From NCBI RefSeq assembly GCF_008386465.1, contig NZ_VUOD01000008.1, forward strand, positions 1 through 64,000: a stretch of 64,000 nucleotides of DNA, given 5' to 3'. The notes under the pieces are model-generated. The model was not told the origin of the DNA and did no database searches. It saw only the letters and a list, made by a program, of their open reading frames with translations. Positions 10,841 to 29,808 of the stretch are shown here, one piece after another. Both the position numbers and the translations under genes were made by a program. Numbering within the stretch: the first letter of the stretch is position 1; each line of letters starts with the position of its first letter. Source of the stretch: Arenimonas fontis (GTDB lineage Bacteria; Pseudomonadota; Gammaproteobacteria; Xanthomonadales; Xanthomonadaceae).

Positions 10841-12039
10841 TGCGCCTCCAGCCGGTCCGCGATCAGGTCGAGCAACTGCCGCGCGACCTCGCCCTTGGCG
10901 GCGCGCGGAATGTCGTGCCGGCCGCCGCGCCAGAACACCGCCAGCGCGTTGTCGTCGGTCTCGAAACCCTGGCCGGCACGGCCGACCTCGTTGGCGGCGA
11001 TCATGTCCAGGCCCTTGCGTTCCAGCTTGTCGCGCGCGTAGGCCTCCAGCTCCTCGGTCTCAGCGGCGAAACCGACCACCAGGCGCGGTCGCTGCGCGTG
11101 CGCCGCCACCTCGGCCAGTACGTCGGCCGTGCGCACCAACTCCAGCACCAGGGTCTCGCCGGTCTTCTTGATCTTGTGTTCGCGCACCTGGACCGGGGTG
11201 TAGTCGGCCACGGCGGCGGTGCCCAGATAAACGTCCTGGCCCGGCGCCGCAGCCAGTACCGCCTCGCGCATCTGGGCGGCGCCGCGCACGTCCAGCCGGC
11301 GCACGCCCGGCGGCGTGGCCAGCGCGACCGGCCCCGCCACCAGGGTCACCTCGGCGCCCATCGCGGCGGCGGCGGCGGCGAGGGCGAAGCCCATCTTCCC
11401 GGAGCTGCGGTTGCCGATGAACCGCACCGGATCGATGTCCTCGTAGGTGGGACCGGCGCTGACCAGCACCCGCCGCCCGGCCAGGCGCGGCGGCGCCAGC
11501 GAGCCTTCCAGCGCTTCGACCAGCTGCATGGGTTCGAGCATGCGCCCTTCGCCCACCTCGCCGCAGGCCTGGTCGCCGGCACCGGGGCCGAGCACGCTGA
11601 CGCCCCGGGCCTGAAGGGTGGCGACGTTGGCGCGGATGGCCGGATGCGCCCACATGAGCCGGTTCATGGCCGGCGCCACCAGCAGGGGCGCCTCCGTGGC
11701 CAGGCACAGGGTGCTGAGCAGGTCGTCGGCCTGGCCGTTGGCCAGGCGTGCCAGGGTATTGGCGCTGGCCGGCGCGATCAGCACCCGGGTCGCCCAACGG
11801 GCCAGCTCGATATGGCCCATGGCCGCCTCGGCGGCCTCGTCCCAAAGTGAGCTGCGCACCGGATTGCCGGACAGGGCCTGGAAGGTGGCGGCGCCGACGA
11901 AGCGCTGCGCCGCCCCGGTCATCACCACCCGGACCTCGGCCCCGCGCTCGCGCAGCCGGCGCACCAGCTCGGCCGCCTTGTAGGCGGCGATGCCGCCGCT
12001 GACGCCCAGCAGGATCCTTTGCCCTTGCAGTCCGGCCAC
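10837..12039 (-). CDS. coaBC: phosphopantothenoylcysteine synthetase/decarboxylase
   Basis: Bifunctional flavoprotein of coenzyme A synthesis. The N-terminal CoaC decarboxylase domain (about 1-185) carries the [10 protein letters not shown] motif and PAMN near 120. The C-terminal CoaB ligase domain carries [21 protein letters not shown] and the IKK segment. I prefer the GTG at 12039, which has AAGGA seven bases upstream, over a GTG at 12063 that would add eight residues. It is the first gene of coaBC-dut-algC and divergent from radC. Confidence 0.94.
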
Positions 12040-12133
12040 CTGGCAGTCCTTACCCGTGTGCACGCGCCTAGCTTACCCGATGCCCCGCCGGCCACCGACC
12101 CCGGATCCCGCTCCCGCGCGGCAGGCTGATGGC

Positions 12134-12808
12134 ATGCAGATCCGCGAATGGCCCCCGAGCGAACGCCCGCGCGAGCGCCTGCTGGCCGCCGGCGCCGGCG
12201 TGCTCACCGACGCCGAATTGCTGGCCCTGTTCCTCGGCTCCGGCCTCTCCGGAATGAACGCCGTGGACCTGGCCCGGCGGCTGCTGGACCAGGCCGGCGG
12301 CCTGCGCGGCCTGCTGGACCGGCCCCCGGCCCGGCTGGCCGAACTGTCCGGCCTGGGGCCGGCCCGGGCCGCCTTGCTGGCGGCGGCACTGGAGCTGGGC
12401 AATCGCCACCTGGCCCAGGGCCTGGCCCGGGGCGAGGCGCTCACCGATCCGGGTCGGGCCGGCCAATACTTGGCCCGACGCCTGCGTGCCCTGCCCTACG
12501 AGGTGTTCGCCTGCCTGTTCCTGGACACCCGGCACCGGGTGGTCGCCTTCGAGGAACTGTTCCGCGGCACGCTCGACGGCGCCGAGGTGCATCCGCGCGA
12601 AGTCGTACAGCGCTGTCTGGCCCACCATGCGGCAGCCGTGATCCTCGGCCACAACCATCCCAGCGGCAGCCCCGAGCCCAGCGCCGCCGACCGCGCCGTC
12701 ACCGCGCGCCTGCGCCAGGCGCTCGGGCTGGTGGACGTGCGTGTGCTCGACCACTTCATCATCGGCGACGGCGAGCCCTGTTCCATGGCCAGGCTGGGCC
12801 TGCTGTGA
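12134..12808 (+). CDS. radC: RadC/JAB-domain protein
   Basis: 224 residues: an N-terminal helix-hairpin-helix-like region (about 20-95) and a C-terminal JAB1/MPN-type metalloprotease fold. The zinc motif is H173-x-H175 followed by [11 protein letters not shown] with D186. The radiation-repair role once claimed for E. coli RadC is not supported; its true function is unknown. The ATG at 12134 begins the conserved MxIxxWPxxxRPRERL segment. It is divergent from coaBC, as in many gammaproteobacteria. Confidence 0.92.
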
Positions 12809-12874
12809 GCCTGGCTGGGCCGGCCCCGCCGCTGCGTATACTGCCCCGGTGGCATTCCGCCGCCGGGAGCGCCC

Positions 12875-13906
12875 GTGATCCTCGGCTACGCCAGCCTGTA
12901 TGCCGCCGATGCGGCCGAACGCATCCTGCCGGACCCGTCCTCGGCCCGGCGTTTGCTGATGGACCGGCGCCCCGACATCCCCGGGCGCATCGAAGCCGTG
13001 GTGGCCCGAGCCACCGCCGGCGAAGGCTCGCCCCAGCATGCCGACGCGGCCCTGCTGGGCCTGGCACGGCTGGGCCTGCGCCATGGCGGCTTCGGCGACG
13101 ACCCGCACGACTACCACAACGAAGAGCATGTGCTGGAACTGGCCGAGCGCCGCCTCGGCCGGGTCATGGACCACCTGGGCGAAACGGCGCTGCCGGCTGC
13201 GGACTGGCTGGCCCTGCTGCTGTTCGCCGCCTGCCACGACCTGCGCCAGCGCGAGCGCTTCGACGTGCCGGGCCCGGTCGGCGGCAACGAAGCCGCCAGC
13301 ATCGCCGAGACCTTCCGCATCCTCGACCGCTGCGGTTTCGCTCCGGACCGGGACCGCGACCTGTACGTGGCCCTGGAGCTGATGATCGCCGGCAGCACCT
13401 TCGACACCCGACCGGGAGCGCACGGCGACGGCGAGCAGGTGGTGGCCGCCGGCGGCGCCCTGGCCCGCAGCCTGGGCGTGTGGCTGGACGCCGAGCGCCC
13501 GGACTGGACCGGCGACCCGGCCGCCCGCCGCGGCGAGCGCCTGGCCCGCCTGGCCGCCGACCTTGACACCGCCAATGTCGGCGAGCCTTTCCCCTTGCTG
13601 GCCGGCAGCGCCTTGCGCCTGTGCCTGGAACGCGAGCGCCTGGCCGGCCGGCCGCTGGACAAGGCCGTCAGCGGCGGCCCCTGCCTGGATTTCCTCGGCC
13701 GCGGCCAGATGCATTATTTCTTCGAACTGCACCGCTTCTGCTCACGCGAGGGCCAGCAGGTGTTCGGCGCCGCCAAGGAGGCCAATGCGCCGGCGGTGCG
13801 CCGGGTCAGCGGGCAGTTGCTGGCCCGGTTCGAGGAGGTGCCGCCGGCCAGCGGACAGGCAGTGGTCGAGGCGTTCAGGGATCTGTGCGCCCGGGAGGCC
13901 GCCTGA
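12875..13906 (+). CDS. HD-like metal-dependent phosphohydrolase domain protein, function unknown
   Basis: 343 residues with no recognisable N-terminal signal. A helical core carries a pattern resembling HD-domain hydrolases: H81/H85 in DYHNEEHV, the HD doublet at H121-D122, and a later D229/D231 in LAADLDTAN. HD proteins cleave phosphoesters, often nucleotides. The residue spacing here suggests a distinct subfamily, and the substrate is unknown. The start is GTG at 12875 after GGGAG. It stands alone between radC and argS. The fold assignment is inferred from motif order only. Confidence 0.7.
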   Translation: MILGYASLYAADAAERILPDPSSARRLLMDRRPDIPGRIEAVVARATAGEGSPQHADAALLGLARLGLRHGGFGDDPHDYHNEEHVLELAERRLGRVMDHLGETALPAADWLALLLFAACHDLRQRERFDVPGPVGGNEAASIAETFRILDRCGFAPDRDRDLYVALELMIAGSTFDTRPGAHGDGEQVVAAGGALARSLGVWLDAERPDWTGDPAARRGERLARLAADLDTANVGEPFPLLAGSALRLCLERERLAGRPLDKAVSGGPCLDFLGRGQMHYFFELHRFCSREGQQVFGAAKEANAPAVRRVSGQLLARFEEVPPASGQAVVEAFRDLCAREAA

Positions 13907-13920
13907 GCCGCCCGGTCCGG

Positions 13921-13951
13921 AAAAAAAAGAAGACCGGCCCGGAGGCCGGTC
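13921..13951. terminator. hairpin with A-tract on its left side
   Basis: A perfect 8-bp stem (13932-13939 with 13944-13951, loop CGGA) is preceded by a run of eight A. Read on the minus strand it is hairpin plus T-run, the form of an intrinsic terminator; on the plus strand no T-run follows. The adjacent gene ends in the plus direction, so either it is bidirectional and weak for that gene or it stops antisense transcription. Confidence 0.5.
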
Positions 13952-14080
13952 CTGCCCCGATTCCGGCCTGGTGGCCGAACCGTCGAAACGCGTGGGAGAG
14001 ATACGGTGTCCCGCCGTACGCCGGCCAGTATCGTCTCCCCGGGTGACGGTCGCGTGACAGCAGCGGCCGGCCGGGCCGGC

Positions 14081-14086
14081 TAGAAT
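14081..14086 (+). promoter_or_regulatory. -10 element of argS (TAGAAT)
   Basis: CTAGAAT lies 36 bases before the argS start, the same context (CTAnnnT) and distance as at speE, glyQ, tatA and others here. No clear -35 is present. Confidence 0.5.
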
Positions 14087-14116
14087 ACGCGGCTCCCCTT
14101 TGCGGAAGCGGATCCA

Positions 14117-15879
<1,763 letters not shown>

Positions 15880-22638: not shown

Positions 22639-23046
22639 ATGAGCACAGCCAGCGGAAGCTGCCTCTGCGGCGACCTGCGTTTCGCGGCGCAACTGCCCAG
22701 CAAGTGGGTGGCGCACTGCCATTGCACGATGTGCCGGCGCGCGCACGGCGCCGGCGTCGTCACCTGGGCCGGCTTCCAGCAGCAGCGGGTCAGCCTGCAC
22801 GACCCGCAGGGCCGCCTGCACTGGTACGCCTCCAGCCCCTGCGCCGAGCGCGGCTTCTGCAGCCGCTGCGGCAGCACCCTGTTCTTCCGCTCGCAGCGCT
22901 GGCCCGGCGAGCTGCACATCGTCGTTGCGAACTTCGACGACCCGCTCGACCGCGCCCCGCAGGTGCACGTCTTCTACGACAGCCACGTGCACTGGCTGCC
23001 CATGCCCGAGGACGGGCTGCCGCGCAAGGGCGCTCCGGGCGGCTAG
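22639..23046 (+). CDS. GFA/CENP-V fold zinc protein
   Basis: 135 residues with the zinc-binding cysteine pattern of the glutathione-dependent formaldehyde-activating enzyme family: C8/C10, C27/C29/C32 and C74/C77. The family includes S-hydroxymethylglutathione synthase-like proteins, but most members have unknown substrates. A likely -10 (CTAGGAT) overlaps the comM stop. Its 3' end faces the SagB-related gene across a shared hairpin; I see no functional link. Confidence 0.85.
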   Translation: MSTASGSCLCGDLRFAAQLPSKWVAHCHCTMCRRAHGAGVVTWAGFQQQRVSLHDPQGRLHWYASSPCAERGFCSRCGSTLFFRSQRWPGELHIVVANFDDPLDRAPQVHVFYDSHVHWLPMPEDGLPRKGAPGG

Positions 23047-23055
23047 GGCATACAG

Positions 23056-23078
23056 GCCGCCTCAGCGACCGAGGCGGC
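23056..23078. terminator. convergent hairpin overlapping the dehydrogenase stop
   Basis: GCCGCCTC (23056-23063) pairs with GAGGCGGC (23071-23078), loop of seven. It overlaps the last codons of the SagB-related gene and lies just after the GFA-protein stop. T-runs are absent, so its strength is uncertain. Confidence 0.5.
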
Positions 23079-24246
23079 GTGTTGCCGGGCTTGGCACCAC
23101 AGGCTCCAGCTCGATGTTGCGGGCCTCGCCTGTGGCCGGCCCGAAGCCGACGATCGCCAGCGTGCCTTGCCGCATGGGTGGAAGCCGCAGTTCCTCGTCA
23201 ATCTCGGCGTCGTTGATCGCCGCGGTGACGAAGGCACCCAATCCCAGCTCGGCCGCCGACAGGTACATGGTCTGGGACAGATGGCCCGCCTCCAGATGCA
23301 GCACCCGCCAAGCCTTGGCATGCCGGCGGTACTTCCAGAACAGCCGGTCGAAGCGCGCGACCATCACCACCAGCACCGGCGCGTCAAGGAACCAGTCCTG
23401 ACCGGCCAGGAAGCGGTACGCCATCGCGGCGGCTTCCTCGCCTGTCAGCTTGCGCAGCGGTTCGACTGCGTGGTGCATGGCCCGGTAGTGATAAAGACCG
23501 GGCGCCAGGCCCTGCACCCGGCGCACGAGAACGAATGCCTCCAGCGCGTGCAGGCCGCCGCCGGCCGGCGAGCTCTTCTTGACGGCGACAGCGCCCGGCG
23601 CCAGCTCGCGGGTCCCGATGACTCCCCATACCCGACGCAGCATCGCCGAGAACGCCGACATGGGCAGCTCGGCCCGGGTATCGAAGTTCCTGCAGGTGCG
23701 GCGACGCTGCAACAGGTCGTCCAGAGGACCGGCTGGTGGCGGCGGCAATTCGATCATGGAGCCGGCGCCGGGCACCGCGTAGTCGTGCGTGGGTGCCGGA
23801 CCGAACTCGGCCACGCGCTCGCTCGTGCTCGTGGTCTTGCCGTCGTCACGACGCCTGGCGATGTCCACCCCGCGCCAGGCACCGGCCAGATGCGCCAGCC
23901 GGGCGGGTGGCCACCAGTCCACCGCCCCGCCGTCGCCACCCGGTACAGGCGCGCCTTCCTTCGCCACCGCAGGCACCAGCAGCCCACGTTCGAGCAGCGC
24001 CATGATCGTGTCGGCGCCATGACGGCCGGCCAGAACCGCCTCGTCCACGGCCTCGCCCGCGGCCATGCCCGCCAGTGCCGCCAGCTGCGGCACCGACAGC
24101 TCGGCCGGCTCCGCCAGCGTGGCGGCATAGGCCAGAATGCGGGGGCGCGTGTCCAGGCCGTCGCCCCCCGCCAGCACGGAAGCCAGGTCGAACCGCGGTG
24201 AATCATCCAGCGCGAACTGGATGTCCGCACATCGCAACAGTTTCAT
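23062..24246 (-). CDS. SagB-related FMN dehydrogenase, putative peptide maturation dehydrogenase
   Basis: 394 residues. Residues 1-160 are a poorly conserved N-terminal region. Residues about 175-385 are a SagB-type nitroreductase fold: RRRTCRNFD (181-189), SSPAGGGLHALEAFVLV (225-241), LAPGLYHY (247-254) and the FMN-site helix LHLEAGHLSQTMYLSAAELGLGAF around 317-339. SagB enzymes oxidise azolines to azoles in RiPPs. No YcaO cyclodehydratase is encoded nearby, so the substrate chemistry is open. The divergent neighbour encodes a leader-type precursor peptide. From memory it matches TIGR04511. ATG at 24246 follows GGGGAAAG. Confidence 0.85.
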   Translation of the reverse strand: MKLLRCADIQFALDDSPRFDLASVLAGGDGLDTRPRILAYAATLAEPAELSVPQLAALAGMAAGEAVDEAVLAGRHGADTIMALLERGLLVPAVAKEGAPVPGGDGGAVDWWPPARLAHLAGAWRGVDIARRRDDGKTTSTSERVAEFGPAPTHDYAVPGAGSMIELPPPPAGPLDDLLQRRRTCRNFDTRAELPMSAFSAMLRRVWGVIGTRELAPGAVAVKKSSPAGGGLHALEAFVLVRRVQGLAPGLYHYRAMHHAVEPLRKLTGEEAAAMAYRFLAGQDWFLDAPVLVVMVARFDRLFWKYRRHAKAWRVLHLEAGHLSQTMYLSAAELGLGAFVTAAINDAEIDEELRLPPMRQGTLAIVGFGPATGEARNIELEPVVPSPATRRLGR

Positions 24247-24311
24247 TTCTTTCCCCGGAATGCCGGCCCGGATCCGGGCCCGCGAAGAAACATGCCGGGG
24301 CAGGGGGTGGC

Positions 24312-24340
24312 CTGACAAGCGACCTGGCCGCCGCTAGACT
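24312..24340 (+). promoter_or_regulatory. promoter of the RiPP-like precursor gene
   Basis: CTGACA (24312-24317), a 17-base spacer and TAGACT (24335-24340) form a credible sigma-70 promoter 41 bases upstream of the GTG at 24381. A 10-bp palindrome TTGGCGCCAA (24354-24363) lies in the predicted 5' leader and could be an operator. Confidence 0.6.
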
Positions 24341-24380
24341 GGGTACGCGCCGATTGGCGCCAAACCCAGGGGAATTCCAG

Positions 24381-24650
24381 GTGTCCAACAAGCTCGCTCC
24401 CGAAACCGTAGACGCGCTGATCGACAAGCTGGCCAATGACGACGCTTTCCGCGCCCAGTTCATGGCCAACCCTCGCGCCGCCACCCGTTCCCTCGGCACC
24501 GCCGACCCGGCGGTGGAATCCCTGCCGGAAGCACCGATCCGTCGACTGGCCGACAAGGAAGTATTCCAGCGCTCCGGCGCCACCATCCGCCAGTCGCTCA
24601 TCAGCTCGAAGTTCCCCTTCGAGCCGATCACCCTGGAAATCAACCGCTGA
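24381..24650 (+). CDS. RiPP-like precursor peptide with nitrile-hydratase-type leader (putative modified peptide)
   Basis: 89 residues. Residues 1-45 resemble NHLP-type leaders: an amphipathic helix (TVDALIDKLANDDAFRAQF) followed by the MANPRAA turn. The C-terminal 35-40 residues form the candidate core, with Ser/Thr (S65, T68, S72, S75, S76, T84) but no cysteine anywhere. A run of Phe-Pro-Phe-Glu-Pro lies near the end. GTG at 24381 has AGGGGA eight bases upstream. It is flanked by a divergent SagB-related dehydrogenase and a convergent cyclase-TPR gene. This three-family set is, from memory, TIGR04509-04511. The modification and role are unknown. Confidence 0.82.
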   Translation: MSNKLAPETVDALIDKLANDDAFRAQFMANPRAATRSLGTADPAVESLPEAPIRRLADKEVFQRSGATIRQSLISSKFPFEPITLEINR

Positions 24651-24674
24651 AGGCTGCCCCCGGGGTCCCGAGGA

Positions 24675-27317
24675 TCAGTCCAGGGCGGCGTCGCGGCGCT
24701 TGACGACCTCCAGCGCCTCGTCGCCCGGCCAGGCCTTGGCGAACGCGGCCTCATAGGTACGCACCATGTCCGGCAGCCCCTGCCGGCGCGCGATCTCGAC
24801 CGCGGCGCGGATCGCCAGCCCGTTCTCGACCACGTTCGCCGGCTGCCAGGCACTCAGCAGCGTAGGCTCGCCCAGGGCGCGGCCGCGGTTCTCGATCAGC
24901 CAGTCCGCCACCAGCGCCGCCTCGGCGTCCCGCCGCGTCGCCAGCAATGCCCGCAGCAGGACCGCGCGGGAGAAGTACAGGCCCGTGTTCCTGGCATGGT
25001 CCGGAAGCAGCAGTTCCACTGCCTTCCCGGGCTCGCCAGACGCCAACGCCAACTCTGCCCTGGCGATCCGGAGCATCGCCGCGTTCGCCGGGTACCGCTC
25101 GATCGAGAAGTGCGACTCCAGCTTGGAGACGAGGTGCTTCGCCAGGGGCTCGTTGCCGGTATGCGCCGCCACCCAGGCGCCACCCAGGAGATGGAAGGCC
25201 AGTTGGCGGGCCGGCCAGGGCTGGGCCTGATCGAACTCCGCCTCGACTTCCTTGACCCATCCCTCCAGATCCCTGCCCAGGGTCTCGTCCGGTGCGTAAG
25301 CGCGCAGCGAGAAGACGGAGAGCTGGTAAGCCCGCGCCAGAAGCTTCCGGTCCCTGGCCATGGCCTCTTCGGCCAGGCGCTGCATGGCGGCAAGCGCCTC
25401 GCGGTAACGCCCCTGATCCAGCGGCAGGGAGACTTCGACCAGCCGCGCCTCCAGGTCTGGGGCTACCACGTTGGAGCTCGTCTGCAGGCTTTGCAGCCGG
25501 GCCGCCTCCGCGTAGTCACGCTTGGCGATGTAGGCCTCGACGAAATCGCGAGCGTAGCCTCTGACACCGAGGGTCTCCGCCTTCTCGAACAGGGTGATGG
25601 CCCGATCGATCTGGTTGGCGCTCAGCGCGATGCTTCCGGACAGGTATGCCGCGCTTGCCTGGGCCGGATTCTGCGAGAAGATGGCTCCCTCCAGCTGCTC
25701 CAGCGCCCGATCGCCCTCCAGCAGGTCGAAATGGGCGAAATAGGCGTAGTTGTAGCGGCCGCGGTAATCATCCGGGTACAGCGCCACCAACGTGCCGAAC
25801 CGCTCCACCGCCTTGCGAGGGTCCGACAGGGTGGCTTCCGCCCCTTCCAGGAACAGACGTTCGCGATGCGTCAGGTGCTCGCTGTGCGCCAGGGCCTTGT
25901 CCAGATAGGCGCGCGTCCCCTCCGCATCCACTTCCACATAGCGCATGAACGCCAGGCGCAGCCACGCCATGGCGAACTCCGGATCAAGCCGCACCGCTTC
26001 CTCGAACAGCGCCTGCGCCTCGGCGGCCCGGCCCGTGTAGCGCATCCGCACGCCCATCGAGAACGCCTTGAGCGCCTCGAGGTTGCTGGTGGTCGCCTGC
26101 TCCAGCGGGATGCGGTTGGCCTCGATGCTGGACATCGTCTCGCCGAGACGGCCGCGCACCTTGGTCAACGCCGTATCCAGCGAAGGCAACACGCTTTCCA
26201 CGCCGACGCCGTCGGCGCTCTCGCTGTAGACCGTCACGCCGCTGTGGGGGTCGATCACCTCCAGGCTGACCCGCACCCGGCCGCCGACCTCGGCGACGGT
26301 CGGCAGGATCACCGCGCGGGCGCCTTCGCGCAGCGCCACTTCCGAGGCCACCTGGCGGTCCAGCGGCTGGCCCTGGCGCTGCATGCGCTCCAGGGTGCGA
26401 TCGACCTGCAACTCGGAAATGATGTTGACGTGCCGCGACTGCTCCAGGCCGACGCGCAGGGCCACGTCCAGGGCGTCGTCGAACAGCGGCTCGTCGGTGC
26501 GGTTCTGCAGATCGGCCACCACCACCCAGTCGCGCTCGGCGAAGGCGATGGCCGGCGGCGCCCGCAGCGCGGTCCAGAGGCCGGCCACGGCCAGGGCGCC
26601 CACCACCAGCATCTCCATGGCCAGCATCGGCGGTCGCCGCCACAGCGGCAGCTCGCGCCAGGCCTTGGCGCCGGACTCCGGCGGCCGCAGCGGCGCCAGG
26701 CCGACCTCGCCGACCTCGTGCACCAGCATCGGCGCCGGCACACCCTTGAAGCGGTAGCGGCCGTGCATCAGCCAGCGCAGGCGCGCGGCGGTGTCCTCCC
26801 CCAGTTCGCCGACGGCGCGCTGGGCCAGGTTCTGCGCCATGCCCGACATCAGGATCTGCCCGGGCAGGGCCAGGCCCATCAGCCGCGCCGCCACCGGCTT
26901 GGCCAGGCCTTCCACCTCGAAGGGCTTGGCGCCGGCGCGGACATCGGCCGGGGCGTTGGCCCACATCATCACGTCGCCGACGTGGATGCCGATGCGGGCG
27001 CGCAGGTCCACGCCTTCTTCCCGGCCCAGCTCGCGCAGGCCGCGCTGGTAGCGCAGGGCGAAGTCCAGGGCCTGGATCGGCCGTTCGAACAGGGCCAGCA
27101 CGCCGTCGGCGCGGTCTATCAGCTGCCCGTGGCACAGGCGCAGGGCGTCGCGGAGCATGCGGTCGTGCCGCTGCATCAGCGCCGACCAGCGCTGGTCGCC
27201 CAGGCGCTCGGTCGCCGCGGTGGAGTCGACGATGTCGCACAGCAGGACGGCGCGCAGCACCGGCGTCACCGGGACGCCGGCCGGCGGGGCTGTCGTGCTG
27301 GTCAGGGTCGCTTCCAT
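24675..27317 (-). CDS. class III nucleotidyl cyclase-like / TolB-like / TPR protein, putative peptide modification system cyclase
   Basis: 880 residues. Residues about 20-200 are an adenylate/guanylate cyclase homology domain with metal Asp D28 (CDIVDST) and D71 (ADG). A membrane segment lies at about 232-250. A TolB/FlgO-like domain follows at 260-390, then about 450 residues of TPR-like helical repeats. The substrate lysine four residues before D71 is I67, and the asparagine before the catalytic arginine R145 is P141, so normal cAMP synthesis is doubtful. ATG at 27317 matches the conserved start; an upstream start adds only low-complexity sequence. Its end faces the precursor gene 24 bases away, and it matches TIGR04510 from memory. 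Confidence 0.83.
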   Translation of the reverse strand: MEATLTSTTAPPAGVPVTPVLRAVLLCDIVDSTAATERLGDQRWSALMQRHDRMLRDALRLCHGQLIDRADGVLALFERPIQALDFALRYQRGLRELGREEGVDLRARIGIHVGDVMMWANAPADVRAGAKPFEVEGLAKPVAARLMGLALPGQILMSGMAQNLAQRAVGELGEDTAARLRWLMHGRYRFKGVPAPMLVHEVGEVGLAPLRPPESGAKAWRELPLWRRPPMLAMEMLVVGALAVAGLWTALRAPPAIAFAERDWVVVADLQNRTDEPLFDDALDVALRVGLEQSRHVNIISELQVDRTLERMQRQGQPLDRQVASEVALREGARAVILPTVAEVGGRVRVSLEVIDPHSGVTVYSESADGVGVESVLPSLDTALTKVRGRLGETMSSIEANRIPLEQATTSNLEALKAFSMGVRMRYTGRAAEAQALFEEAVRLDPEFAMAWLRLAFMRYVEVDAEGTRAYLDKALAHSEHLTHRERLFLEGAEATLSDPRKAVERFGTLVALYPDDYRGRYNYAYFAHFDLLEGDRALEQLEGAIFSQNPAQASAAYLSGSIALSANQIDRAITLFEKAETLGVRGYARDFVEAYIAKRDYAEAARLQSLQTSSNVVAPDLEARLVEVSLPLDQGRYREALAAMQRLAEEAMARDRKLLARAYQLSVFSLRAYAPDETLGRDLEGWVKEVEAEFDQAQPWPARQLAFHLLGGAWVAAHTGNEPLAKHLVSKLESHFSIERYPANAAMLRIARAELALASGEPGKAVELLLPDHARNTGLYFSRAVLLRALLATRRDAEAALVADWLIENRGRALGEPTLLSAWQPANVVENGLAIRAAVEIARRQGLPDMVRTYEAAFAKAWPGDEALEVVKRRDAALD

Positions 27318-27369
27318 CCGAATCCTCGGTTCGGCGGGGCTACCGGGGTGAACGCAGGCTCCCCGGGTC

Positions 27370-28398
27370 TCAGGCCACGCCCTGCAGGGGGGCCAGCCGC
27401 CAGTGATCACCGCCCCGGCGTTTGGCCTCATAGAGAGCGCCGTCGGCCTGGCTGTACCAGGCCGACCAGCCGCCCGGGTCGGCGCAGAAGGCGCCGCCCA
27501 CGGAGACCGACAGGCGGTGTTCCCGCAGGCTGGGCAGGCGCAGGCTGCGGATGGCCCCCATCAGACCCAGGGCGCGGTTGGCGAGTTCCCCGGCATCGGC
27601 CACCCGCAACACCAGGGCGAACTCGTCGCCACCCAGCCGGCAGGGCAGTTCCAGGGGACCGGCCAGGCGGCGCACCTCCTCGGCGACGGCGCGCAGGGCG
27701 GCATCGCCGGCCAGGTGGCCGCTGCGGTCGTTGATGGTCTTGAAGTGGTCGATGTCGACCAGCAGCAGGGCCAGCTTCATGCCGTCCAGGGGCTGGCGGC
27801 CCAACTCGTCCAGATAGCGGTACAGACCGCGGCGGTTGGCCAGGCCGGTCAGGTCGTCGGTGCGGACCAGCTGCTGGGCGACGGTCAGTTCGGTGCGGGT
27901 CTGGCGCAGGGTGTCCAGCGTCTGCAGCAGATCCTCGTTGCGGCGCTTGAGGTGCTGCACCAGCTGGTGCTCGCCGGCCACCAGGTAGGCGAAGCTGCGC
28001 TGCATGAAGCGGGCCACCACCGCCGGCTCCCGCTGCAGCAGGGCCTCGAAGGCGGCCTGGGTGATCTCGTAGAGCACGCCGGCGGTTTCCGCCACGGCCC
28101 TGGCGAAACGCTGGTGCTGGCCGATGAATACCGCCAGCTCGCCGAAATACTGGCCCGGCCCGAGCAACTTGTCGGCCAGGCCGTCGTCGAAGCTCAACCG
28201 CACCTCGCCGGTGTCGATGAGGAACATGCTGGCGGCGGCCTCGCCGCGCCGGAACAGTTCCTCGCCGGGCAGCACGGCCCGGCTCGTGCCGGCCGAGGCC
28301 AGCACCCGGAATTCCTCGGGGGCGAGTTGTGAGGGCAGGCGGGCGTCGGCCCCCTGCCCCGGACGGAGTTCCCCGTCCAGGGCTTCGGCTGGGTTCAC
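27370..28398 (-). CDS. cyclic-nucleotide-binding domain / GGDEF diguanylate cyclase
   Basis: 342 residues. A cNMP-binding domain (about 25-130) includes the phosphate-cassette-like FGELAVF...RFARAVA. A helical linker (135-175) leads to a GGDEF domain with DDLTGLANRRG at 181-191 and RLGGDEF at 254-260. The catalytic motif is intact; the RxxD inhibitory site is missing (PLEL at 248-251). The predicted output is c-di-GMP synthesis gated by a cyclic nucleotide. It lies 52 bases upstream of the cyclase-TPR gene on the same strand, so they are probably cotranscribed. GTG at 28398 is chosen because a TATAGT -10 (28427-28432) excludes longer starts. Confidence 0.87.
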   Translation of the reverse strand: MNPAEALDGELRPGQGADARLPSQLAPEEFRVLASAGTSRAVLPGEELFRRGEAAASMFLIDTGEVRLSFDDGLADKLLGPGQYFGELAVFIGQHQRFARAVAETAGVLYEITQAAFEALLQREPAVVARFMQRSFAYLVAGEHQLVQHLKRRNEDLLQTLDTLRQTRTELTVAQQLVRTDDLTGLANRRGLYRYLDELGRQPLDGMKLALLLVDIDHFKTINDRSGHLAGDAALRAVAEEVRRLAGPLELPCRLGGDEFALVLRVADAGELANRALGLMGAIRSLRLPSLREHRLSVSVGGAFCADPGGWSAWYSQADGALYEAKRRGGDHWRLAPLQGVA

Positions 28399-28426
28399 GG
28401 CTCGTTCAGGCCAGGAAGATCGGCCG

Positions 28427-28432
28427 ACTATA
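28427..28432 (-). promoter_or_regulatory. -10 element (TATAGT) of the GGDEF-cyclase operon
   Basis: TATAGT on the minus strand lies 29 bases before the GTG start. No good -35 is found at 16-18 bases. Confidence 0.45.
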
Positions 28433-28473
28433 CCCAAGCCGGGCCCCCGCCACACCTGCCGCGGCCGGCAAGG

Positions 28474-28493
28474 ACCGTGAACCCGCTCACGGT
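28474..28493 (-). terminator. hairpin after aceA
   Basis: ACCGTGA (28474-28480) pairs with TCACGGT (28487-28493), six-base loop, directly after the aceA stop in its direction of transcription. No T-run follows, so it may be only a 3' stabilising hairpin. Confidence 0.4.
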
Positions 28494-28494
28494 A

Positions 28495-29808
28495 TCAGGC
28501 CGCGGCGGCCGCCCGCCCCCGGGTCCGGTCCTGAAACTGTTCCTCCTCGGTCGAACCCTTCAGGGCCACGGTCGAGCTCTGCCCGCCCTGGATGGTCTGG
28601 GTGACGGCGTCGAAGTAGCCGGTGCCGACCTCGCGCTGGTGCTTGACCGCGGTGAAGCCCAGCTCGGCGGCGGCGAACTCCTTCTCCTGCAGCTCGACGA
28701 AGGCGCTCATCTGCCGGCGGGCATAGCCGTGCGCCAGGCTGAACATCGAGTAGTTCAGGGCGTGGAAGCCGGCCAGGGTGATGAACTGGAACTTGTAGCC
28801 CATGGCCGCCAGCTCCTTCTGGAAGCGGGCGATGGTGGCGTCGTCCAGGTTTTTCTTCCAGTTGAAGCTGGGCGAGCAGTTGTAGGCCAGCAGCTTGCCC
28901 GGGTACTTCGCGTGGATGGCCTCGGCGAACTTCCTGGCGAAGGCCAGGTCGGGCTTGCCGGTCTCGCACCACACCAGGTCGGCGTAGGGCGCGTAGGCCA
29001 GGCCGCGGCTGATCGCCTGGTCGGCGCCGGGGCGGGTGCGGAAGAAGCCTTCGACGGTGCGTTCGCCGGTCAGGAAGGGCCGGTCGTTGTCGTCGATGTC
29101 CGAGGTGATCAGGTCGGCCGCCTCGGCATCGGTGCGGGCAACGATCAGGGTCGGCACGTTCATCAGGTCGGCGGCCAGGCGCGCGGCCACCAGCTTCTCG
29201 ATCGCCTCGCGGGTCGGCACCAGCACCTTGCCGCCCATGTGGCCGCACTTCTTCACGCTGGCCAGCTGGTCCTCGAAGTGCACGCCGGCGGCGCCGGCCT
29301 CGATCATCGCCTTCATCAGCTCGAAGGCGTTGAGCACACCGCCGAAGCCGGCCTCGGCGTCGGCGACGATGGGCTGCAGGAAATCGATACCGCCGTCACC
29401 CTCGGCGTGCTGGAGCTGGTCGGCGCGCAGCAGGGTGTTGTTGATGCGCTTGACCACCTGTGGCACCGAGTTGGCCGGATACAGCGACTGGTCGGGATAC
29501 ATCTCGCCGGCCAGGTTGGCGTCGGCGGCGACCTGCCAGCCGCTGAGGTAGATGGCCTTGAGGCCGGCCTTCACCTGCTGCATGGCCTGGTTGCCGGTGA
29601 GCGCGCCCAGCGCGTTCACGAAGGGCAGCTCGTGCAGGTAGCGCCACAGCTTCTCAGCGCCCAGCCGGGCCAGGGTGTGCTCCACCGGCACGGTGCCGCG
29701 CAGGCGCACGACTTCCTCGGCGCTGTAGGGGCGGCGGATGCCGGCCCAGCGCGGATCCTGGGCCCATTGCTGGCGGAGCTGGTCGGCGGTCGGAAGGGTG
29801 CGGGTCAT
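28495..29808 (-). CDS. aceA: isocitrate lyase
   Basis: Splits isocitrate to glyoxylate and succinate, the first step of the glyoxylate bypass used on acetate and fatty acids. 437 residues; the catalytic motif KKCGHMGGK is near residue 190 with the active Cys, and WCETGKPD and NCSPSFNW are conserved. Two adjacent ATG codons exist; the second (29808) sits seven bases after GAGGA and is preferred over 29811. It lies downstream of aceB with a 120-base C-rich gap between the genes. Confidence 0.95.

Follow-up and report, generated by a model that had tools for sequence, protein, structure and literature searches.

A homologue of the Xanthomonas cyclic GMP relay shares its gene cassette with a RiPP-like peptide and a probable maturase in Arenimonas fontis

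Four neighbouring genes occupy positions 23062-28398 of the stretch of Arenimonas fontis DNA analysed here (64,000 nucleotides of contig NZ_VUOD01000008.1, hereafter the window): a dehydrogenase of family TIGR04511, a small peptide of family TIGR04509, a nucleotidyl cyclase of family TIGR04510 and a GGDEF protein with a cyclic nucleotide-binding (CNB) domain, called cNMP-GGDEF below. The new element is that a published signalling relay, leading from cyclic GMP (cGMP) to cyclic di-GMP (c-di-GMP), shares this cassette with a peptide resembling the precursors of ribosomally synthesised and post-translationally modified peptides (RiPPs), and with the probable maturase of this peptide. One half of the locus appears to be an already described signalling pair; the other half, peptide and dehydrogenase, appears unstudied within the literature searched. 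An earlier reading of the window from its letters (the sequence-only reading) had placed the same four genes there, and all were found; it had named the three families, and NCBIfam bears out each assignment, with 403.5 bits for the dehydrogenase (cut-off 240), 63.2 for the peptide (curated cut-off 34) and 841.3 for the cyclase (cut-off 400). The link that it drew to nucleotide signalling is right too. Its title spoke of a peptide modification locus fused to second-messenger enzymes: the genes are indeed neighbours, but they are four separate genes, and that of the peptide lies antisense between those of the cyclase and of the dehydrogenase, its end 24 bases from the cyclase 3' end. It also knew of no described function, which no longer holds: cyclase and GGDEF protein are, as judged by sequence, homologues of the published XC_0250 and XC_0249 of Xanthomonas campestris (available text of PMC3770947).

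According to the available text of An et al. 2013 (PMC3770947), XC_0250 is a guanylate cyclase, and the linked XC_0249 steps up its c-di-GMP synthesis once cGMP is bound; biofilm formation and virulence are reduced in mutants of either gene. In that text the authors count the Xanthomonas pathway among the few bacterial cGMP systems described, leave its input signal unnamed and call the TPR region uncharacterised; the pathway is also described in the accessible part of a review (PMC8042644). The residues reported for XC_0250 are D41, D71, L73, A150, L157 and A161, and the structure code given for the XC_0249 domain is 4KG1 (PMC3770947, same text). In PDB, the CNB domain of the window is matched best by chain 5h5o (E 1.2e-21), onto which the seven published nucleotide contacts map with a constant offset of 22 (from the alignment, counted by eye); 5h5o is therefore probably the cGMP-binding domain of XC_0249. 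This chain is 93% identical to a protein of one surveyed locus (L118, genome G017), whose cyclase carries the six reported residues at their published numbers, so that G017 is here taken to belong to Xanthomonas. Of the 35 genomes of this genus, 30 have the peptide and 29 the 5h5o domain, at up to 97% identity. Eighteen regions were fetched from it, chosen among peptide-bearing genomes: 15 hold the four genes in canonical arrangement, one has the dehydrogenase turned, one is decayed and one is cut by the contig end. The decayed locus (L244, 9 kb fetched) keeps its GGDEF gene intact, but its cyclase is short, its peptide is split, and no dehydrogenase turned up there; the cut one (L245) ends at a contig edge, the two genomes being G534 and G536. 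Of 16 further cyclases of the genus, 6 show the whole residue pattern of XC_0250, and the remaining 10 depart from it solely at 157, where they have I or V. The canonical order is also that of the named strain Xanthomonas sp. NCPPB 1128 (L198), whose CNB domain is 65% identical to 5h5o.

The window shares with the XC_0249/XC_0250 pair the same two adjacent genes, the domain order, most of the published catalytic positions and most of the cGMP contacts (available text of PMC3770947). Its cyclase keeps D41, D71, A150 and A161, and its cNMP-GGDEF protein has the GGDEF motif and is identical at five of the seven cGMP-contact positions. Among 34 cNMP-GGDEF proteins F73, E90, L91, H98, E146 and the GGDEF motif are invariant (34/34); at the position of N145, 24 have N, 5 have S and 5, with the window among them, have G. 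In the cyclase homologues D28 is conserved in 42 of 43 and D41 in 41 of 43; D28, 13 residues before D41, stands where class III cyclases have their first metal aspartate, the published metal aspartate being D41 (this region lies at 27190-27240). By homology with the Xanthomonas proteins, the window may encode a cGMP to c-di-GMP relay. Neither peptide nor dehydrogenase is mentioned in the available text of the XC_0249/XC_0250 paper (PMC3770947). A literature search, whose coverage left out most subscription papers, gave no paper on the peptide or the dehydrogenase beside these signalling genes and, on related terms, no title or abstract joining the peptide with this cyclase. The same search found no paper containing the TIGR numbers or XC_0251, XC_0252 or XC_0248, presumably the locus tags of the pathway neighbours.

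The cyclase gene (24675..27317, minus strand) encodes 880 amino acids. Its class III catalytic domain (residues 18-175; 26793..27266, minus strand) matches the solved cyclases Ma1120 and LipJ, and a single membrane helix is predicted by hydropathy at residues 231-249 (26571..26627, minus strand), a stretch where 42 of 44 cyclase homologues have one too. Beyond it comes a TolB-like and TPR region, the TPR being recognised by Pfam and the TolB-like label being the name given by the sequence-only reading. Since arginines precede the predicted helix, the catalytic part is probably inside and the TolB/TPR part outside. The proposed placement of the locus in the envelope can thus hold for the TolB/TPR part, via the one predicted helix, and not for the rest. 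The cNMP-GGDEF gene (27370..28398, minus strand, GTG start) encodes a cNMP-binding domain (residues 41-123) and a GGDEF domain (residues 180-331), both assigned by Pfam, whose matches on the four proteins are nitroreductase, GGDEF, cNMP_binding and TPR. We also note two cyclase-family matches in other genomes (G624:C1:419530-421332 and G603:C175:2555-4351) that start at profile position 206-213 and so lack the catalytic domain.

We surveyed 119 genomes of the bacterial family of the window. Only cyclase matches above the cut-off were counted, because the model also matches 8 of 14 control genomes at E 0.001, none of them above it. Counted above the cut-offs, the cyclase occurs in 76 genomes, the peptide in 76 and the dehydrogenase in 74 (75 at E 1e-30); the three occur together in 74, none of them in 42, and a partial set in 3. 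Two of the partial sets are a genome with cyclase and peptide that is 72% complete (G007) and one with peptide and dehydrogenase where the cyclase is fragmented (G011). Peptide and dehydrogenase go together in 75 genomes, the peptide being found once without the dehydrogenase and the dehydrogenase never without the peptide, so that the co-occurrence on which the sequence-only reading depended is there. The peptide accompanies the cyclase in 75 of 76 cyclase genomes, and peptide plus dehydrogenase in 74 of 76; the peptide is thus a concrete candidate for the input of the XC_0250/XC_0249 pathway. The cNMP-GGDEF profile matches 77 of the 119 genomes at E 1e-60, and of the 71 genomes having both genes, 69 have the GGDEF gene immediately before the cyclase gene and in the same orientation. 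Fisher tests on this co-occurrence are extreme, but they take no account of kinship between the genomes; more weight falls on nine genera that, by our reading, include genomes of either state: there the three genes are present or absent jointly, with one exception (G054). In a sample of 398 genomes from the whole phylum the dehydrogenase is above the cut-off in 8, each of them in the order of the window; in a sample of 121 genomes from this order the cyclase is above it in 26.

The gene order is conserved as well. Forty regions from 39 genomes, chosen for a cyclase match, make 41 with the window; in 31 of the 41, GGDEF gene, cyclase and dehydrogenase follow each other on one strand and the peptide gene stands on the other between the last two, extra same-strand peptides being allowed. 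In the remaining regions, the GGDEF gene was not found beside the cyclase in L108-L114, some of which are rearranged or multi-peptide, the dehydrogenase is turned in L115, peptide and dehydrogenase are missing in L120, and an extra peptide lies on the other strand in L134. In L111 and L114 the peptide gene shares 4 bases with the dehydrogenase gene, given the starts chosen for them. The best 80 of 326 matching stretches from a scan of public genomes gave 78 named loci, chosen for holding the cyclase; 61 of these have the canonical order with one to three peptides. The 17 others include some short contigs, four loci where two successive cyclase-peptide pairs precede the dehydrogenase, and four with a second cyclase-peptide-dehydrogenase unit. 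Cyclase and peptide thus duplicate together. In L108 (G022) and L110 (G067) peptides and dehydrogenases are expanded, with diverse tails, and the GGDEF homologue is elsewhere in the genome; G022 reaches nine peptide and five dehydrogenase matches.

The peptide gene (24381..24650, plus strand, GTG start) encodes 89 residues, for which Pfam gives no match. From 146 unique peptides found, 63 were compared: all match TIGR04509 at E 0.001, and 60 of 63 match at this level the family of Os1348 (NF038399), for which the window peptide stays below the cut-off (32.4 bits vs 40). It also stays below that of the classical nitrile hydratase leader peptide (NHLP) family TIGR03793 (21 bits vs 50.9); the profile of the 63 peptides finds the nitrile hydratase alpha subunit in PDB, weakly (E 0.0054). 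Among 10 equal-length copies of the genus taken as Xanthomonas, dN/dS is 0.14 for the whole peptide and 0.12 for its last 26 residues, which argues for a translated and constrained gene. Just before it lies the one sigma-70-like site of the interval 22900-28600 (0.3 expected), CTGACA-17-TAGACT (24312..24340, plus strand), a promoter-like site by consensus match only. Palindromes of the CRP/Clp type in 118 peptide-dehydrogenase spacers are unconvincing (9% vs 4% in shuffles). The structural model (pLDDT 82.9) has six helices between residues 7 and 75 and no secondary structure beyond, mean pLDDT falling to 46 in 81-89. Sequence entropy is 3.26 bits at 77-89 vs 1.56 at 8-39 in the 63 sequences, in which not one tail residue is strongly conserved. 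A conserved leader followed by a variable tail is the typical anatomy of RiPP precursors, as the sequence-only reading had seen, and model and entropy designate the tail (residues 76-89; 24606..24647, plus strand) as the candidate core. A fold search with the model gives Os1348 (6lk7) as best match, weak at E 0.41, and nothing at E 0.001.

The dehydrogenase (394 amino acids, 23062..24246, minus strand) is an FMN enzyme related to SagB: it passes the SagB domain model TIGR03605 (103.9 bits vs a cut-off of 78.4). In its catalytic domain, about residues 170-370, W304, K305 and Y306 are invariant among 43 aligned dehydrogenases (46 found); the K-Y pair is the catalytic one of McbC-type oxidases. 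The AlphaFold model (pLDDT 91.7) matches ThcOx, BmdC and McbC in PDB, and resembles the azoline oxidases of peptide and nonribosomal peptide synthetase systems. Its N-terminal residues 2-92 alternate strands and helices, and the alignments with ThcOx and BmdC begin at residue 1, with a root-mean-square deviation of 11.7 and 4.6-5.0 respectively for a search made with the whole model. The domain at about 1-95 may have a topology like that of the RiPP recognition element (RRE). The SagB kinship proposed by the sequence-only reading stands, but not the ordinary azole chemistry of SagB, whose YcaO partner is missing: no YcaO passes the cut-off in the genome of the window (the E. coli control is positive) and one does in only 6 of the 119 family genomes. 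As 69 of the 75 dehydrogenase-bearing genomes, that of the window included, are without YcaO, azole chemistry is unlikely; a SagB-type dehydrogenase devoid of this partner in most genomes might carry out a new peptide chemistry.

From these data we propose that the four genes form a signalling cassette in which the dehydrogenase matures the peptide, the peptide regulates the cyclase, and cGMP is relayed to c-di-GMP, a reading to which we give about an even chance. The dehydrogenase would bind the helical leader of the peptide, probably via its N-terminal domain, and would oxidise the variable C-terminal tail. The peptide, matured or not, may then be the cognate regulator of the adjoining membrane guanylate cyclase; gene order, pairing and joint absence point to this link. 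By homology, the cyclase would make cGMP, which would bind the CNB domain of the neighbouring GGDEF protein; the protein so loaded would raise c-di-GMP synthesis and change biofilm and related behaviour. A more specific claim, which we put forward tentatively and would rather bet against, is that the SagB-type dehydrogenase matures the peptide without YcaO and that the peptide so made serves the membrane guanylate cyclase as its dedicated ligand, gating the cascade. If true, the pathway has its missing input encoded by an adjoining gene, and a peptide-controlled second-messenger relay is conserved in Xanthomonadales.

Several observations weigh against the signalling cassette. The XC_0250 mutant regained biofilm with just the catalytic part of the protein (available text of PMC3770947), which means that the peptide is dispensable for basal activity. 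The TPR part is predicted outside and no hydrophobic segment was found in the peptide, which leaves a cytosolic peptide without an evident way to reach it. One genome (G054) has cyclase and GGDEF gene without peptide or dehydrogenase; the GGDEF homologue (E 1e-60) is missing from five cyclase genomes and elsewhere in two, and five genomes have it without the three other genes; one locus (L112) has two cyclases for one peptide. The window differs from X. campestris at V73 and M157 of the cyclase and by G at N145 of the GGDEF protein. A further locus, L109 (G040), keeps dehydrogenase and peptides beside a cyclase homologue (11518-14130) lacking the catalytic motif: the SDG anchor is lost, the peptides are five and near-identical, and no GGDEF gene is there, which suggests that the TolB/TPR part can serve peptides without nucleotide synthesis. 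Lastly, mirror-tree correlations controlled for the GGDEF protein (85 loci) are 0.34 between peptide and TPR part and 0.52 between dehydrogenase and TPR part; among 66 loci the flanking malate synthase follows the peptide at 0.61, the parts of the cyclase at 0.37 to 0.60. Since this flanking gene correlates with the peptide no less than the cyclase does, we do not count the mirror-tree as evidence. The restored biofilm, G054, L109, the failed co-evolution control and the lack of an evident route leave room for two other readings.

In the first, the cassette serves to produce a small molecule for secretion, either an antibiotic or a signal between cells; cyclase and GGDEF protein regulate its production or sense it, and the peptide is the output. 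An NHLP-related peptide with a variable tail, and the many copies in some lineages (the nine matches of G022), go in this direction; so does Pseudomonas, where loss of the related Os1348 gene lowers antibiotic activity (available text of PMC7726476). We nevertheless consider a product unlikely. The seven neighbours identified in the window—GFA-domain, isocitrate lyase, malate synthase, LysR, YifB/Mg-chelatase, P-II and spermidine synthase genes—include no transporter, peptidase, other protease or immunity gene, as the sequence-only reading had said; for the other genomes, single-linkage clustering of the flanking open reading frames was too noisy (antisense frames, GC-rich DNA) to exclude such genes. 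The low dN/dS of the tail in ten copies of one genus indicates strong purifying selection, and housekeeping neighbours recur, unlike in a mobile island: of the 40 regions, 29-30 contain homologues of isocitrate lyase, malate synthase and LysR, 22 a comM homologue and 20 a glnK homologue. The cassette mostly sits in the conserved core genome of Xanthomonadales. A mobile bacteriocin island was for this reason judged unlikely, and the possible new chemistry has a core-genome setting and not that of a toxin island.

In the second, which seems to us improbable to the same degree, the peptide is an unmodified small adaptor that docks both on the cyclase and on the dehydrogenase, the latter sensing redox state or flavin, and no RiPP chemistry occurs. 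The six-helix model with its weak resemblance to Os1348, the absence of the YcaO partner and the lack of any strongly conserved tail residue fit an adaptor; Os1348 is described as a stable dimer whose mobility stayed unchanged on disruption of its SagB-type partner, but its authors concede that a 2 Da change may have escaped their method (available text of PMC7726476). Against an adaptor speak the K-Y pair, invariant in all 43 aligned dehydrogenases, and the leader and tail anatomy of the peptide. A conventional thiazole/oxazole (TOMM) RiPP with a cyclodehydratase encoded elsewhere in the genome could call upon the SagB domain score and upon C, S or T residues in the last 20 positions of 144 of the 146 unique peptides, but we rejected it as very improbable, since the YcaO cyclodehydratase that it requires was not found in the genome of the window and 104 of the 146 peptides have no Cys in these positions.

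The peptide and dehydrogenase half has partial counterparts elsewhere. The three TIGR families have names in NCBIfam, but neither the numbers nor the names led our literature search to a paper on the system; all three families are in the window, and the names carry no tie to cGMP or to a GGDEF gene. The Os1348-Os1351 cluster of Pseudomonas sp. Os17 likewise has a small NHLP-clan protein, made of six helices and ending in a flexible C-terminus, and an adjoining SagB-type dehydrogenase, and its authors found no SagC or SagD homologue; unlike the window it contains an acetyltransferase, a HEXXH protein and nearby transporter genes, and the available text mentions no cyclase or GGDEF gene (PMC7726476). 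The branch 6 ATP-grasp RiPP loci combine a SagB-like nitroreductase with predicted precursors, and some have adenylate cyclases; by contrast they are built round an ATP-grasp enzyme, some with YcaO (available text of PMC8939145), and no ATP-grasp gene was seen in the cassette. ThcOx, BmdC and McbC share the FMN domain fold of the dehydrogenase, but they act on azolines, and the genome of the window is without YcaO. The cyclodipeptide oxidases of AlbA type (8uc3, 9exv) have different substrates and are not among the sequence matches.

The GFA-domain gene (22639-23046) adjoins the dehydrogenase; as it has a homologue in only 3 of 40 other regions, it is probably outside the cassette. An anti-phage system was considered and rejected, PADLOC giving only weak matches between the CNB domain and Pycsar components. 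An Arenimonas-like cassette with 54% cyclase identity lies on a contig titled Rhizobium sp. (L147, a metagenome-assembled genome), perhaps through a binning error.

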